Below, piece after piece: positions 46,878 through 52,394 of a stretch of 64,000 bases of DNA (positions are counted from its first letter, which is position 1; every line of letters starts with the position of its first letter). Location: assembly GCF_006715865.1 (NCBI RefSeq), contig NZ_VFOA01000001.1, positions 1,054,001-1,118,000 of the forward strand, in the 5' to 3' direction. The notes under the pieces were generated by a model. The model did no database searches. It was not told the origin of the DNA and saw only the letters and a program-made list of their open reading frames with translations. Origin of the DNA: Cellulomonas sp. SLBN-39. Lineage in GTDB: Bacteria > Actinomycetota > Actinomycetes > Actinomycetales > Cellulomonadaceae. The position numbers and the translations under genes are program-made.

Positions 46878-48785
46878 TCAGCCGGCGGCGCGGTAGGCCC
46901 GGCCCGCCTGCGTCGGCGTCGAGGCGTCCGTGTACAGGCCGTACGCGGCCGAGTCGCCGACCGCGGGGAGCCCGAACCACGCGTACCGCTCCACGTGGGC
47001 GCGCTGCTCGAACCCGGCCGTCGTGCCCTCGACGAACGTCGCGAGCTGGTCGCCCGTCGGGTACGCCGGGCCGCCGGCGAAGTCGATCAGCCCGTACTCG
47101 GTGACCCACACCGGCAGCCCGTAGCGGGCGTGCACCGCGTCGACGTACGCGAGCAGCTGGTCGACGGCCGCGGGCGAGAAGTCCGAGCCGTACCAGTGCA
47201 GCGTCACGAAGTCGACGCGCAGCCCCTGCTCCTGCGCACCCGACATGAACCGGTCGAGCCAGCCGCCGGGCGTGTCGGCGCCCCACGCGACCGCCGGGCT
47301 GCCCAGCCGCAGGCCGGTCGCCTCCAGGCGCGGCCACGCCTCCAGCGCCTCCTCGACGCTCATCGCCGACTGCTCGCCGAGGTCGGGCTCGTTGAAGCCC
47401 AGCAGCACGTCGCCCTCCGCGGCCGCCTGCGCGAGCGTCGCGTCCGTGACGTGGTCGCGGCCCCAGATCATCGGCACGAACTCCACGCCCTCGGGCGCGG
47501 GCATGGTGTCGTCCGTCGGCGACCAGTTGTAGAACCAGCCGGCGCCGACGTCCTGCAGCGCGCCCGCGACGCCGTCCCACTGCCACGTCGCGACGCCCTT
47601 CTTCGCCGACGCAGCCGCGGCCACGACCGGGGCGGGCGCGGGCGTCGGGGACGGGTCCGGGGTGGGGGTGGGCGTCGGCTCCGGCGTCGGGGACGGGGTG
47701 GGCGTCGGCGTCGGCGTGGCGACGACGGACGTCGAGGTCCGGCGGGGGGTGGGCGAGGCCGTCGGGCGTGGCGTCGGCGTGGACGACGCCACCGCCTGCG
47801 GCGGACGATCCTGCCCGCGCTGCACCGCCACCGCGGCACCTCCACCGGTGACCAGGGCCGCCGCGAGCACGGCCACCAGGGTCTTCTTGCCGATCGCGAG
47901 GCCCGCCGCGGTCGCGACGCCGGGCGCGGACGACGACGCGCCCACCGTGGCGGAGGACGCGGCACCGGGGGACGCCGCACCCGTCGACGCCGCTGCGCCC
48001 GCCCCGGCGAGGTGCGCCCCGGCCGCGCCGAGCGCCTGCGGCCACGGCACCAGGGCGAGCCCGCCGAGCAGCCGCTCGGCCGCGACGAGGCCCGTGCCGG
48101 CGTCCGCGCAGCCGGCGCACCCGCGCACGTGACGGGCCACCCGCTTGCGCCACAGCGCGTCCGGCCGGCCGTCCCACCCGGCCGTCACCTCCTCCAGGCC
48201 CGGGCACCGCGGCGAGGCGGCGAGCGCCCGCACCACCGTGCGCGCCTGGTCGAGCCGGCCCTTCATGCGCTGCACGCGCACCGCCGTGTGCGCGCGGGAC
48301 GCGCCCGTCGCGCGCACGACCTCGTCGCGCGTCAGGTGCCCCGAGGCCTCGAGCCACCACAGCGACAGCAGCTCGCGGTTCTCCTCGTCGAGCCACCGCG
48401 TGGCCTGCGCGACCTCGCGCCGCTGCCCCGTCAGCTCCAGACGGGCGATGGTCACGTCGGCGAAGTCGGCGCCGGGGTCGCCGGGCTCCTCGGCCGGCAG
48501 CCCGCGGGGCGCGGTCGCCTGCGCCCGCGAGCGCTCGCGCACCTGGCGCACCGTGATCGCGGCGAGCCACGACCGGTACGCCGCCGGGTCGCGCAGCTCG
48601 CCGATGCCGCGCAGCACCCGCAGCATCGTGTCCTGCACGACGTCGTCGACGTCGGCGTGCCCGCGCAGCGCCCGCCCGACGATCGAGTAGACGAGCGGGA
48701 GGCTGCCGGCCACGAGCCGGTCGACGGCGTCGGGGTCGCCGGCACGGGCTGCCAGCACCGTCGCGGTGTCGGTCGAGAACGCCAT
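46878..48785 (-). CDS. ECF sigma factor fused to zinc finger, membrane helix and GH128 domain
   Basis: 635 residues; ATG at 48785 after GGAGG. Domains in order: sigma-70 region 2 (about 22-90, with HADVDDVVQDTMLRVLRG and SWLAAITVRQVRERSRA); region 4 (about 118-185, LTRDEVVRATGASRAHTAVR); an anti-sigma zinc-finger motif RHVRGCAGC (His219, Cys223, Cys226); an Ala/Ser linker; a membrane helix (about 301-322) after the basic GKK; a Thr-Pro linker (335-390); and a GH128 catalytic domain with Glu466 in GFNEPDL and Glu563 in WVTEYGL. GH128 enzymes hydrolyse beta-1,3-glucan. The sigma part would be cytosolic and the glucanase extracellular, so one chain could sense glucan and control transcription. 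Confidence 0.9.
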   Translation of the reverse strand: MAFSTDTATVLAARAGDPDAVDRLVAGSLPLVYSIVGRALRGHADVDDVVQDTMLRVLRGIGELRDPAAYRSWLAAITVRQVRERSRAQATAPRGLPAEEPGDPGADFADVTIARLELTGQRREVAQATRWLDEENRELLSLWWLEASGHLTRDEVVRATGASRAHTAVRVQRMKGRLDQARTVVRALAASPRCPGLEEVTAGWDGRPDALWRKRVARHVRGCAGCADAGTGLVAAERLLGGLALVPWPQALGAAGAHLAGAGAAASTGAASPGAASSATVGASSSAPGVATAAGLAIGKKTLVAVLAAALVTGGGAAVAVQRGQDRPPQAVASSTPTPRPTASPTPRRTSTSVVATPTPTPTPSPTPEPTPTPTPDPSPTPAPAPVVAAAASAKKGVATWQWDGVAGALQDVGAGWFYNWSPTDDTMPAPEGVEFVPMIWGRDHVTDATLAQAAAEGDVLLGFNEPDLGEQSAMSVEEALEAWPRLEATGLRLGSPAVAWGADTPGGWLDRFMSGAQEQGLRVDFVTLHWYGSDFSPAAVDQLLAYVDAVHARYGLPVWVTEYGLIDFAGGPAYPTGDQLATFVEGTTAGFEQRAHVERYAWFGLPAVGDSAAYGLYTDASTPTQAGRAYRAAG

Positions 48786-48873
48786 GGGATCGGACCTCCT
48801 GCGTGGGCGTCGAGGATCGCACGGGCCGCCGCGCACGACGGCCACGCACCAGGAGACGGCCGGGGAGCGCGCG

Positions 48874-48900
48874 GATAACCAGAACGTGGCGACCGGTTCT
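48874..48900 (-). promoter_or_regulatory. ECF-like promoter of the sigma-GH128 gene
   Basis: On the minus strand AGAACC (48900-48895), 15 bases, then GTTATC (48879-48874), resembling the GGAAC/GTT architecture of ECF promoters. AGAAC-N10-GTTCT also forms an inverted repeat here. It ends about 90 bases before the ATG and overlaps the GH43 stop. It could mean autoregulation. Confidence 0.4.
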
Positions 48901-50383
48901 ACGCGGGGTCCGGCTCCGCGTGCCCCACGTGCTCGAACGCCAGGACGGCGAGCTCGCCACGCTCGCGCACCAGGCCGACGGTCCTGCCCGTGAACCCGCC
49001 GGCCACCTCCGTCGACAGGTACCGCCCGTCGAGGGTGCCCAGCACGACCCGACCCTCGGGTCCGTCGACGGCGGCGACGACCTCGTCGGGCCCGTGCTCG
49101 CGGCTGTGGACGGGTGCCGGTGAGGGGTGCACGTCGATCTCGAGGACCGTGGCCGGGGTGTGCGGGGCCTCGCCGAGGACCGCCGTGACCGACCCGATCC
49201 GGGCGACCGCCCGCACCCGGCCGCCGTCGACCTCGAGCGTCAGCGCGTGCCGCGGGTCGATCCGCAGCTCGAGCCCGCCGACGCCCGCCGACGCGTCGAC
49301 GCGGGCCCGGGTGGTGGTCGCGGTGCGCTCCTGCCGCACGCCGACGAACGTGCGCGGCCCCCGCCCGGCGAGGACCCAGCGGCCGTCGGCCCGGTGCAGC
49401 ACGTCGGCGGGGAACACGCCCGCACCGACCCAGGACGGCCCGGGACCGTCGGCGTCCAGCCCCACCACGACCCGCGGCACTGCGGCCGGCTGCACGGGCG
49501 TCGTCGGGTGCGGCCACCCGTCGACCCACGCGACGTCGACCGCGAACGTCTCGCGCCCCAGGACGTGCCAGCCCGGGAACGACCCGGCCGGCCGCACGCC
49601 GAGGAAGACCATCGCCCACGTGCCGTCGGGACGGCGCACCAGGTCGGCGTGCCCGGTGCTCTGCACGGGGCTCGCGGTGCCGCGGGCGGTGAGCACGGGG
49701 TTGCCGGCCCACCCCTCGTAGGGGCCGTCGGGCGCGTCGGAGCGGGCGACCACGACCGCGTGCCCCTGGGCGGTGCCGCCCTCGGCGGCCAGCAGGTACC
49801 AGCGGCCGTCGACCCGGTGCAGGTGCGGCCCCTCGACGTCCTTCCCGCCGGCGCCGGACCACAGCAGGCGCGGCTCGGTCAGCAGCCGGCCGGTCGCGGG
49901 GTCGAGCACGGCCTGACGGATGCCCGCGTCGGACCAGGTGAGGTAGCAGGTGCCGTCGTCGTCCCAGGCGAGGTCCGGGTCGATGCCGCCGGCCCCGGGG
50001 ATCCGCACGGGCGCGGACCACGGGCCGGCGGCGTCGTCGGCCGTGACGAGCAGGTGGCCGGGACCGTCGGAGACGTTCGTGGTGACGAGCCAGAACCGGC
50101 CGTCGTGGTGGCGCAGGGTGGGGGCGTAGATCCCGCCGGAGGGGCCCACGCCGTCCAGCCGCAGCTGCTCCGGGCGCGTCAGCGCGTGCCCGACGGGCTC
50201 CCACGTCACGAGGTCCCCCGACCGGAAGAGCGGGACGCCGGGCGCGTGCTCGAAGCTGGAGCACGCGAGGACGAAGGTGCTGCCGACCCGGCAGACCGTC
50301 GGGTCGGGGTGGTACCCGGCCAGCAGCGGCCGCACCGGCAGCCGCGTGGCGGGGAGGACGTCGGACCGGGGCTGCGCTGCCAT
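48899..50383 (-). CDS. GH43-family glycosidase with C-terminal beta-sandwich
   Basis: 494 residues. The five-bladed propeller opens with LLAGYHPDPTVCRVGSTFVLACSSF (catalytic base Asp), then has GGIDPDLAWDDDGTCYLTWSD (pKa modulator Asp) and KDVEGPHLHRVDGRWYLL (acid Glu). The last 190 residues form the extra beta-sandwich of xylosidase/arabinofuranosidase types (YxWVGAGVFPADVLHRADGRW). No signal peptide, so it should act inside the cell on imported oligosaccharides. The likely role is cutting xylose or arabinose from short chains. It is divergent from a DppABC-type importer and precedes the sigma-GH128 gene by 113 bases. Confidence 0.9.
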   Translation of the reverse strand: MAAQPRSDVLPATRLPVRPLLAGYHPDPTVCRVGSTFVLACSSFEHAPGVPLFRSGDLVTWEPVGHALTRPEQLRLDGVGPSGGIYAPTLRHHDGRFWLVTTNVSDGPGHLLVTADDAAGPWSAPVRIPGAGGIDPDLAWDDDGTCYLTWSDAGIRQAVLDPATGRLLTEPRLLWSGAGGKDVEGPHLHRVDGRWYLLAAEGGTAQGHAVVVARSDAPDGPYEGWAGNPVLTARGTASPVQSTGHADLVRRPDGTWAMVFLGVRPAGSFPGWHVLGRETFAVDVAWVDGWPHPTTPVQPAAVPRVVVGLDADGPGPSWVGAGVFPADVLHRADGRWVLAGRGPRTFVGVRQERTATTTRARVDASAGVGGLELRIDPRHALTLEVDGGRVRAVARIGSVTAVLGEAPHTPATVLEIDVHPSPAPVHSREHGPDEVVAAVDGPEGRVVLGTLDGRYLSTEVAGGFTGRTVGLVRERGELAVLAFEHVGHAEPDPA

Positions 50384-50762
50384 GCGCCGAGCATGCCACC
50401 GGGTGTCCGGCCGCGGTGCCGGCTCCCCTTCTCCGGGTCGCTCGGACGGCCGCGCGGGGTCGCTCTCCGGGCCGCACGAACCACCCGGACGGCGCCTCGC
50501 GCACCGGCTGACGGTCGGGTACCTTGCCGCGTCCGGCCCCCGTGTGAGGAGCCGCACAGCGTGTGTAACGAGACCGGTCCTCAGGTTTCGGGCCTGTTAA
50601 GTGTCCGTCCCGAATCGGTAACTCCGGCCGGTCGCGGCGAAATCGCAGCCATAGTCTCTGGCGGTCCACATCGCGGATCCCGCCGCACCGGCCCCTGAGA
50701 CGGGGCGGGTGCGCGTCCGACGGCGGCACACCCCCTCGTGCCGCCTCGCACCGGAGGTACAC
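50384..50762. other. Intergenic region between GH43 and the ABC importer
   Basis: 379 bases, no gene. It contains a CRP-like site (50543), two GTAAC units (50565 and 50618), a possible -10 TAGTCT at 50653-50658, and a hairpin GGCGGCAC/GTGCCGCC (50722-50745) just before the binding-protein ribosome site. GAGACCGGTCC at 50570 shares ACCGGTC with the ECF-like promoter at 48895, followed by GTTA, but the spacing is longer. Confidence 0.45.
50543..50558. promoter_or_regulatory. CRP/GlxR-like site
   Basis: TGTGA-GGAGCC-GCACA is one base off the TGTGA-N6-TCACA consensus. It lies about 95-110 bases before the likely TAGTCT -10 of the importer operon, plausible for carbon control. Confidence 0.35.
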
Positions 50763-52394
50763 ATGAAGTTCGCGCGCTCCGCCCGGCTGACAGCCCTCGG
50801 GCTCGCCGGCGCCCTCGCCCTCGCCGCGTGCGCGTCGGGGACCGACGCCGCCACGGAGGACGAGGCGACCACCGGCCCCAGCACCGGGATCGTCACGGTC
50901 AGCAACGGCGAGCCCCAGAACCCGCTGATCCCGACGATGACGAACGAGACCTACGGCTCGTCCGTCGTCCAGAGCCTCTTCGCCGGCCTCGTGTACTACG
51001 ACGCCGACGGCGCCATGCACAACGAGGTCGCCGAGTCGATCAGCTCCGAGGACAACATCACCTGGACGATCACGATCGCCGACGGCTGGACGTTCTCCGA
51101 CGGCACCGCCGTCACGGCGGACAGCTTCGCCCGCGCCTGGGACTACGGGGCCGCGCTGGACAACGCGCAGAACCTCTCGTACTTCTTCGAGCCCATCAAG
51201 GGCTTCTCCTACGACGCGAACACCTCCCTCATCGAGGCCGGCGGCCTGACGGTGCAGGACGAGAGCACCCTCGTCGTCACGCTGAACCAGCCCGAGTCGG
51301 ACTTCCCGCTGCGCCTGGGCTACTCCGCCTTCTTCCCGCTGCCCGAGTCCTTCTTCGAGGACCCGGCCGCGTTCGGCGAGGCCCCCGTCGGCAACGGCCC
51401 GTACGTGCTCGAGTCGTGGGAGCACGACGCGGTCATCACGCTCGCGCCCAACCCGGAGTACGCCGGCAGCCGCGTGCCGCAGAACGGCGGCGTCGAGCTC
51501 CTCGCCTACACCGACGAGGACTCCGCGTACAACGACCTGCTCGGCGGCCAGCTCGACGTCATCAAGAACGTGCCCGCCTCGGCGTTCGCCACGTTCGAGA
51601 GCGAGCTCGACGGCCGGTCGGCGAACCAGCCGGCCGCGGTCATCCAGACCCTGACGGTGCCCGAGTGGCTGCCCGAGTTCCAGGGCGAGGCCGGCCTCCT
51701 GCGCCGCGAGGCGATCTCGCACGCGATCAACCGCCTCGAGATCACCGCGACGATCTTCGCCGGCTCGCGGACCCCCGCGACCGACTACACGTCGCCGGTC
51801 ATCGACGGCTGGAACGAGGAGATCACGGGCAACGACGTGCTCCAGTTCGACGCGGACAAGGCCGCCGAGCTGTGGGCGCAGGCCGAGGAGATCTCCCCGG
51901 TCGGCGGCGACTACAAGCTCCAGATCGCGTCCAACGCCGACTCGGACCACCAGACCTGGATCGACGCGGTCTGCAACGGCATCCGCACCAACCTGGAGAT
52001 CGAGTGCGAGTTCTTCCCGTACCCGACCTTCGACGAGTTCCTCGACGCCCGTGACTCCGGCACCGTCCCCGGCCTGTTCCGGTCGGGCTGGCAGGCGGAC
52101 TACCCCGCGATGAGCAACTTCCTCGGCCCGATCTACGGCACCGGGGCCGGCTCGAACGACGGCCAGTGGTCGAACGCCGCGTTCGACGAGACCCTCAAGG
52201 CCGCCGCGGGCGCGCCGTCGCAGGCCGAGGCCGTCGCGCTGTACATGGACGCCGAGACGATCCTCTTCGAGAACCTCCCGGGCATCCCGCTGTGGTACAA
52301 CAACGCCACCGGCGGCTGGGCGGACACGGTCGACAACGTGCAGTTCGGGTGGGACTCCGACCCGATCCTGTACTCGATCACCAAGTCCGAGTGA
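50763..52394 (+). CDS. ABC transporter substrate-binding lipoprotein, DppA/OppA (SBP_bac_5) family
   Basis: 543 residues. Signal peptide with lipobox LALAAC, a short acidic linker, then the family 5 pattern: VSNGEPQNPLIPTMTNETYG, VVQSLFAGLVYYDADG, WTFSDGTAVTADSFARAWDY, and the C-terminal PGIPLWYNNATGGW. The ATG is preceded by GGAGG. It is a membrane-anchored receptor for peptides or, as in some family members, for oligosaccharides such as cello- or xylo-oligomers. The neighbouring GH43 enzyme makes the sugar option worth testing. It heads the four-gene importer operon. Confidence 0.93.
   Translation: MKFARSARLTALGLAGALALAACASGTDAATEDEATTGPSTGIVTVSNGEPQNPLIPTMTNETYGSSVVQSLFAGLVYYDADGAMHNEVAESISSEDNITWTITIADGWTFSDGTAVTADSFARAWDYGAALDNAQNLSYFFEPIKGFSYDANTSLIEAGGLTVQDESTLVVTLNQPESDFPLRLGYSAFFPLPESFFEDPAAFGEAPVGNGPYVLESWEHDAVITLAPNPEYAGSRVPQNGGVELLAYTDEDSAYNDLLGGQLDVIKNVPASAFATFESELDGRSANQPAAVIQTLTVPEWLPEFQGEAGLLRREAISHAINRLEITATIFAGSRTPATDYTSPVIDGWNEEITGNDVLQFDADKAAELWAQAEEISPVGGDYKLQIASNADSDHQTWIDAVCNGIRTNLEIECEFFPYPTFDEFLDARDSGTVPGLFRSGWQADYPAMSNFLGPIYGTGAGSNDGQWSNAAFDETLKAAAGAPSQAEAVALYMDAETILFENLPGIPLWYNNATGGWADTVDNVQFGWDSDPILYSITKSE

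Follow-up and report, generated by a model that had tools for sequence, protein, structure and literature searches.

The general architecture of a single-chain ECF sigma factor with a membrane-anchored, carbohydrate-related extension is already in print for the actinobacterial groups ECF52 and ECF53 (PMC8999054, PMC10766802, PMC5826349). Proteolytic release of the sigma part has been proposed for these groups, which include SCO4117 of Streptomyces coelicolor in ECF52 (PMC5826349, PMC8999054), and some single-chain members have predicted glycosyl hydrolase domains that await experimental validation (PMC10766802). A comparable fusion is IutY (ECF243) of Pseudomonas putida, in which a sigma factor is joined to an anti-sigma part and released by proteolysis; IutY answers the siderophore aerobactin, and the passages that treat it describe no enzyme domain (PMC8999054). 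Another relevant system, SigI6/RsgI6 of Clostridium thermocellum, has a glycoside-hydrolase ectodomain (GH10) as sensor, an autoregulated sigma factor and targets that include sensor-like enzymes (PMC4711584). The RsgI6-GH10 domain is described as very weakly active, yet able to bind (PMC4711584).

Here we describe a single-chain sigma factor with a GH128 glucanase domain, encoded in a 64,000-nucleotide stretch of the Cellulomonas sp. SLBN-39 genome (the window). The protein has each feature listed for ECF52/ECF53, namely a zinc finger, one to two membrane helices, a Pro-rich linker and a carbohydrate-related domain, a likeness by feature list rather than by placement in a sigma clade (PMC8999054, PMC5826349). 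It differs from SCO4117, for which the available passages give a smart00776 carbohydrate module, a pfam13490 finger, a role in development and secondary metabolism, and a proposed motif, CSGYN-17-SRHA, that is unlike the one reported below. It likewise shares with IutY the proposed mode of release, and it differs from SigI6/RsgI6, which consists of two proteins with a SigI-type sigma factor and an autocleaving periplasmic domain, and for which the text at hand names no zinc finger (PMC12203970). A sequence-only reading of the window had proposed a one-protein glucan sensor, mentioning surveys of ECF groups with related extensions but aware of no characterised sigma–GH128 sensor. The architecture in general is known; the predicted promoter and its candidate targets are new. 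A literature search on sigma factors together with GH128 found a single paper, a consortium study; among the matches listed for the boxes described below with ECF terms, none was on point, and the boxes may have appeared in print elsewhere.

A sigma factor and a GH128 domain in one frame

The features of the locus are collected in Table 1. The 635 codons run from the ATG at 48785 to the stop at 46878–46880 with zero internal stops, as the sequence-only reading had maintained. Of the three findings that this reading had named as counting against it, two concern the fusion itself: a sequencing error joining two genes and the lack of such a fusion in relatives. Neither holds. A scan of genome contigs, with the best 80 of 294 relatives retained, gave 79 loci, and at 66 of them both halves lie in a single open frame. 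The fusion is therefore genuine, and a chance or frameshift origin is ruled out. Together with the window, these loci make 67 fusions. Among the 13 other loci, the frame is broken in two, L080 and L052, the latter with a stretch of N, and two more (L055, L059) are cut by contig ends in the same Actinotalea genome; the rest are GH128 genes standing alone (six: L067, L072–L076) and three Streptomyces sigma genes with a different C-terminal domain (L077–L079).

Table 1. Coordinates of the sigma–GH128 gene, its parts and its upstream surroundings in the window
Feature	Position	Strand	Basis
Whole gene: ECF sigma, zinc finger, TM, Pro/Thr linker, GH128; 635 aa	46878..48785	-	frame reading, Pfam, homologue loci
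GH128 subgroup-I domain, residues 396–635 (E466 at 47388–47390, E563 at 47097–47099)	46881..47600	-	Pfam and structure match
Pro/Thr/Ser-rich linker, residues 322–394	47604..47822	-	sequence composition
Membrane helix, residues 303–321	47823..47879	-	hydropathy
Zinc-finger (ZAS-like) ligands C194, H219, C223, C226	48108..48206	-	invariant in 67/67
Sigma region 4, about residues 116–185	48231..48440	-	TIGR02937 (residues 19–180) and AlphaFold2 helices
Sigma region 2, residues 26–90	48516..48710	-	Pfam PF04542 and structure match
Shine-Dalgarno AGGAGG	48795..48800	-	read from sequence
Predicted autoregulatory ECF promoter GTTATC-N16-GTCTCC, 66 nt before ATG	48852..48879	-	motif in upstream regions
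Upstream neighbour, GH43 enzyme	48899..50557	-	PF04616

The N-terminal part is an ECF sigma factor by several measures. Pfam matched Sigma70_r2 (5.5e-11), TIGR02937 (sigma70-ECF) scored 49.7 bits against a cut-off of 42.9, and the modelled region 2 superimposed on that of E. coli sigmaE bound to a -10 element (4lup) with a TMt of 0.84 and an rmsd of 1.7. For region 4, Pfam returned no Sigma70_r4 match in the whole protein at E up to 1; the assignment is made because of the TIGR02937 match and the helices predicted by AlphaFold2. In the AlphaFold2 models, based on alignments of 47 rows (full length) and 49 rows (sigma and zinc part), the sigma, zinc-module and GH128 parts were confident and the middle disordered. 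The divergence of region 4 could be taken to mean that the sigma domain is vestigial and the protein nothing but a tethered enzyme. We regard this as very improbable, since the sigma regions are conserved like the glucanase domain (mean identity to the window residue 0.73 and 0.66, respectively, compared with 0.28–0.36 for residues 231–395), and since the ECF-like promoter is conserved and the genes linked to it recur.

The zinc-finger ligand pattern of ZAS anti-sigma factors is H/C...HxxxCxxC. The corresponding spacing in our protein is C194-x24-H219-x3-C223-x2-C226, and all four ligands, among them those of the HxxxCxxC motif pointed out from the sequence, are invariant in the 67 fusions. 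Family-level scores are weak: Pfam found no zinc finger in the whole protein, zf-HC2 matched the isolated segment at E 0.055 and was matched in 2 of 33 family members, and a comparison with PDB sequences gave zero matches up to E 10. The membrane helix reaches 2.27 on the Kyte-Doolittle scale and is not drawn by the AlphaFold2 model; 64 of the 67 fusions reach 1.6, and in 65 the N side of the helix is the more positively charged. This agrees with the proposed topology, with the sigma domain inside and the glucanase outside.

The outer domain was matched by Pfam as Glyco_hydro_cc (residues 414–631, 1.4e-48), and in both fold and sequence its nearest match is GH128 subgroup I. The model superimposes on the endo-beta-1,3-glucanase AmGH128_I (6uaq; solved chain of 263 residues, the glucanase domain alone, unlike the sigma-fused domain here) with a TMt of 0.95, an rmsd of 1.3 and 56% identity. 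E563 aligns with the residue mutated in 6ufl and 6uas (E199 of AmGH128_I), and the NEP motif together with the title of 6uat leads us to infer that E466 is the partner of E102. E466 and E563 are the two glutamates that the sequence-only reading had pointed to, and N465, E466, H530, Y532 and E563 show no variation across the 67 fusions.

These residues bear on how the domain might work. As suggested for RsgI6-GH10, it could be a lectin-like receptor in which catalysis is irrelevant, and entries for GH128 subgroup VII structures are indeed titled oligosaccharide-binding proteins. However, invariant active-site residues argue that catalysis matters, unlike in RsgI6-GH10, and the nearest match is to the endo-acting subgroup I. 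We therefore consider a binding-only sensor possible, though a good deal less probable than one that also cuts.

The surroundings of the gene are variable. Fixed partner genes are ruled out, as the scanned neighbours differ between L002 (MFS and amino-acid permease), L004 (DeoR, acetyltransferase and GGDEF), L027 (GGDEF-EAL, RibD and dehydrogenase) and L054 (beta-helix). Neighbour clusters common to up to 37 loci, mostly actinoplanete, are expected from common descent. In the window, the GH43 neighbour is not a predicted target, because it does not lie downstream of the motif. Divergent from the GH43 gene is a gene for a family 5 extracellular solute-binding protein (50709–52394), which perhaps heads an ABC transporter operon.

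A predicted promoter and the genes behind it

Upstream regions of the sigma–GH128 genes have in common a predicted promoter, GTTATC-N16/17-GTCTCC, which is new here. The strict motif precedes 45 of the 67 fusion genes, with a spacer of 16 in 35 and 17 in 10, and a relaxed form precedes 66, being missing at L069. Among 13,400 dinucleotide shuffles, the strict motif occurred once and the relaxed one 23 times, a test that is partly circular because the motif was read off the same upstream regions; the genome-wide and target tests are less so. Standalone GH128 genes (six loci, approximate starts) do not have it.

The genome-wide search covered 66 genomes (16 + 50): those of 64 fusion loci, out of 66, and of two Streptomyces with a CAP-type sigma gene. 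It yielded 106 strict matches (23 + 83), compared with 6 (2 + 4) for the reversed pattern. Sigma genes accounted for 46 of the matches (13 + 33; two of them CAP-type), leaving 60 others, and a first downstream frame was called at 58 of these, with two sites lacking a called frame. A few gene families recur behind the motif: GH16 genes at 18 of the 60 sites (Pfam-confirmed in L103, L115, L127 and L183), a BTAD/AfsR-like regulator at 17, DUF1996 genes at 7 (Pfam in L128), and at one site, next to the sigma gene of Nonomuraea, an F5/8-GH128 enzyme (L187). Many of these genomes are close relatives, so the counts are of non-independent events. As a background, 1005 rough gene calls near sigma genes contained one GH16 gene, seven BTAD-like genes and six DUF1996 genes, all six beside a sigma gene. 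Another 11 sites precede singletons, including a CAP gene (L111) in the genome of the CAP-type L077 and a rhomboid protease gene (L121); nine have no obvious glucan link, for example a lantibiotic dehydratase, a phosphotransferase and a tRNA-editing domain. Four strict sites (L137, L140, L154, L162) were rejected as targets, since each coincides with, or closely follows, the 3′ end of a gene on the other strand that by eye is dehydrogenase-like. Unrelated-looking strict sites thus number at least 4 of 60, and L105 looks similar by eye.

In most cases the BTAD gene is the first of an operon, with a GH2 enzyme in 13 of the 17 regions (L208–L210, L213–L226) and a binding protein in 14. The order found in actinoplanetes (regulator, binding protein, GH2, ABC ATPase, permease) is complete in 12 of the 17; as for exceptions, L214 has zero partners in an intact region, and L217 and L226 are cut by contig ends. 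The GH2 enzyme resembles a solved beta-D-galactofuranosidase 2 (1.8e-215 for L209), and the nearest NCBIfam model for the binding protein, far under its cut-off, is galactofuranose-binding YtfQ. Based on these similarities, we predict that the operon is of a galactofuranose type. In published work, a Streptomyces galactofuranosidase freed galactose from Aspergillus galactomannan, and the same source places galactofuranose also in bacteria, trypanosomatids and nematodes (PMC4560423).

The motif and the linked genes vary together in one group. In 11 genomes, ten of them Pseudonocardiaceae and the other recorded under the name Nocardia, the sigma promoter ends in ATCTCC. This variant had 19 matches in those genomes and none for the control; 11 were at sigma genes and eight elsewhere, six of the eight at DUF1996 genes. 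The remaining five genomes have DUF1996 56–88 bp behind the sigma gene on the same strand, so that DUF1996 is tied to the sigma gene by promoter or operon in 11 of 11, several of which are near twins. The GTCTCC form had no match in any of the ten Lentzea-group genomes tried. A divergent DUF1996 gene with a relaxed motif is also present in Sphaerisporangium (L047).

Several further observations were made at these sites. In Actinoplanes sp. TFC3, a rhomboid protease gene (PF01694; L121:786-1418) starts 82 bp behind a strict site and, as a single case, is a possible candidate for a release protease. In Winogradskya humida, a GH46 chitosanase with an F5/8 domain (L211:4442-5671) is convergent to a motif-bearing GH16 gene. 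Both GH16 loci that were examined have a second, related gene (L212:3933-5009 and L211:7036-8031) just upstream of the motif, and in L212 this gene is a GH16 with CBM5/12.

This sigma factor is linked to the motif only through association, and both the sigma gene and the glucanases might be controlled together by some other regulator. The palindrome GGTTCCGGAACC lies between both boxes at 10 of the 18 GH16 sites (L115, L127, L143, L151, L157, L163, L168, L172, L179, L185), which suggests a second regulator there. Nonetheless, the boxes are 16–17 apart, as in ECF promoters, the motif is common to GH128- and CAP-type sigma genes and absent from five AbfB-type ones, and the -10 box and the targets covary in the Lentzea group, where the GTCTCC form is missing. 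A different regulator as owner of the motif accordingly seems improbable to us, and we infer that the sigma factor itself reads GTTATC-N16/17-GTCTCC.

How many genes it would serve in the window's own lineage is a separate question. In this 4.15-Mb genome, GTTATCN{15,18}GTCTC occurs once, at the sigma–GH128 gene, with none for the reversed control; allowing one mismatch with N16 adds two sites, one of which precedes a frame that is transposase-like by eye. The single GH16 gene of the genome (L207) is without the motif. Of four other Micrococcales genomes searched, three (G001–G003) have the sigma site only and the fourth (G048) has zero strict sites. The regulon here may thus be the gene itself, and the protein might be mainly a membrane-anchored glucanase that raises its own synthesis, with which the fully conserved active site is also compatible. 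On the other hand, similar sigma factors in other families have predicted regulons of several genes, and weaker sites may have been missed by a search that went beyond the strict motif only as far as N16 with one mismatch. On balance, we think it less likely than not that the sigma domain serves only its own gene in this lineage. For the one-protein glucan sensor proposed from the sequence, the topology and the beta-1,3-glucan connection are supported by the subgroup-I fold, the conserved active site and the motif before GH16 and GH128 genes of relatives. Its own genome offers a single strict site, that of the gene itself.

Sister proteins with other outer domains

The same sigma, zinc and membrane chassis is found with other ectodomains. 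Pfam detected a CAP domain in L077, L081 and L091 and AbfB in L079, L086, L093 and L095, L089 being AbfB-type by eye; L085 has a GH99-like domain and L088 a beta-helix. The AbfB-type sisters are comparable to RsgI5, which carries CBM42 (PMC4711584). One of them, L095 (G000:C1:1599756-1600460), is a paralogue in the window's own genome, a single-chain sigma factor 55% identical, with AbfB (PF05270) as outer domain and no promoter motif. Matching plasmid records numbered 32, of which 13 were examined. The domain types clustered in a rapidly built tree of 82 sigma parts, with five changes compared with a possible minimum of four, although support is weak at many of its deep forks and long branches come together.

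The relaxed motif precedes 6 of the 14 sisters with other domains and none of the five AbfB-type genes. Ten CAP-type ectodomains match the CAP neighbours. A CAP gene lies within the fetched flank at three of the ten CAP-type loci, with the motif at all three (strict at L082 and L084, relaxed at L087); three further CAP-type genes (L083, L090, L091) have the relaxed motif. A general rule that the neighbour mirrors the ectodomain was rejected, as it was seen at just 4 of 83 loci within fetched flanks, and it is claimed for motif-bearing cases only. These patterns raise the possibility, about which we are still somewhat more doubtful than convinced, of an actinobacterial sigma family with swappable outer domains (GH128, CAP, AbfB, GH99-like, beta-helix) in which the outer domain is similar to the products that the sigma factor turns on, at least for GH128 and CAP. 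The GH128 branch would then be a fungal-wall detector that answers an encounter with beta-1,3-glucan by turning on secreted glucanases, the use of galactofuranose and DUF1996 proteins.

A proposed membrane-held response to beta-1,3-glucan

The reading that we favour, and consider probable, is that of an autoregulated, membrane-held one-protein response regulator for beta-1,3-glucan. The zinc-finger (anti-sigma-like) module and the helix that follow the sigma domain in the same chain would tether it to the membrane. Outside, the GH128 domain would bind, and probably cut, beta-1,3-glucan. This event might be signalled through the single helix and lead to cleavage at or near the membrane, probably regulated, that frees sigma from the zinc module. 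Such proteolytic release is put forward by analogy with IutY and the ECF52/53 model (PMC8999054) and with RsgI (PMC12203970). Freed sigma would direct RNA polymerase to GTTATC-N16/17-(C)GTCTCC, with its own gene as the first target and hence positive feedback. Further targets, predicted for actinoplanetes and their relatives, may be secreted enzymes of GH16 and GH128, DUF1996 proteins and the galactofuranose-type operon. This combination suggests fungal walls as the source of the ligand, a suggestion weakened by the occurrence of galactofuranose outside fungi.

One branch of the single-chain ECF sigma factors thereby gains a concrete predicted promoter, a list of candidate targets and a likely ligand class, so that reporter assays can put the sensor model to a direct test. 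Should the fungal-wall interpretation prove right, the protein would show one way in which bacteria detect fungi in soil, and its single gene would offer a glucan biosensor whose sensing domains can be swapped. On the wider reading of exchangeable outer domains, the bacterium would recognise the fungus by means of a functional enzyme of the same type as those it is about to secrete.
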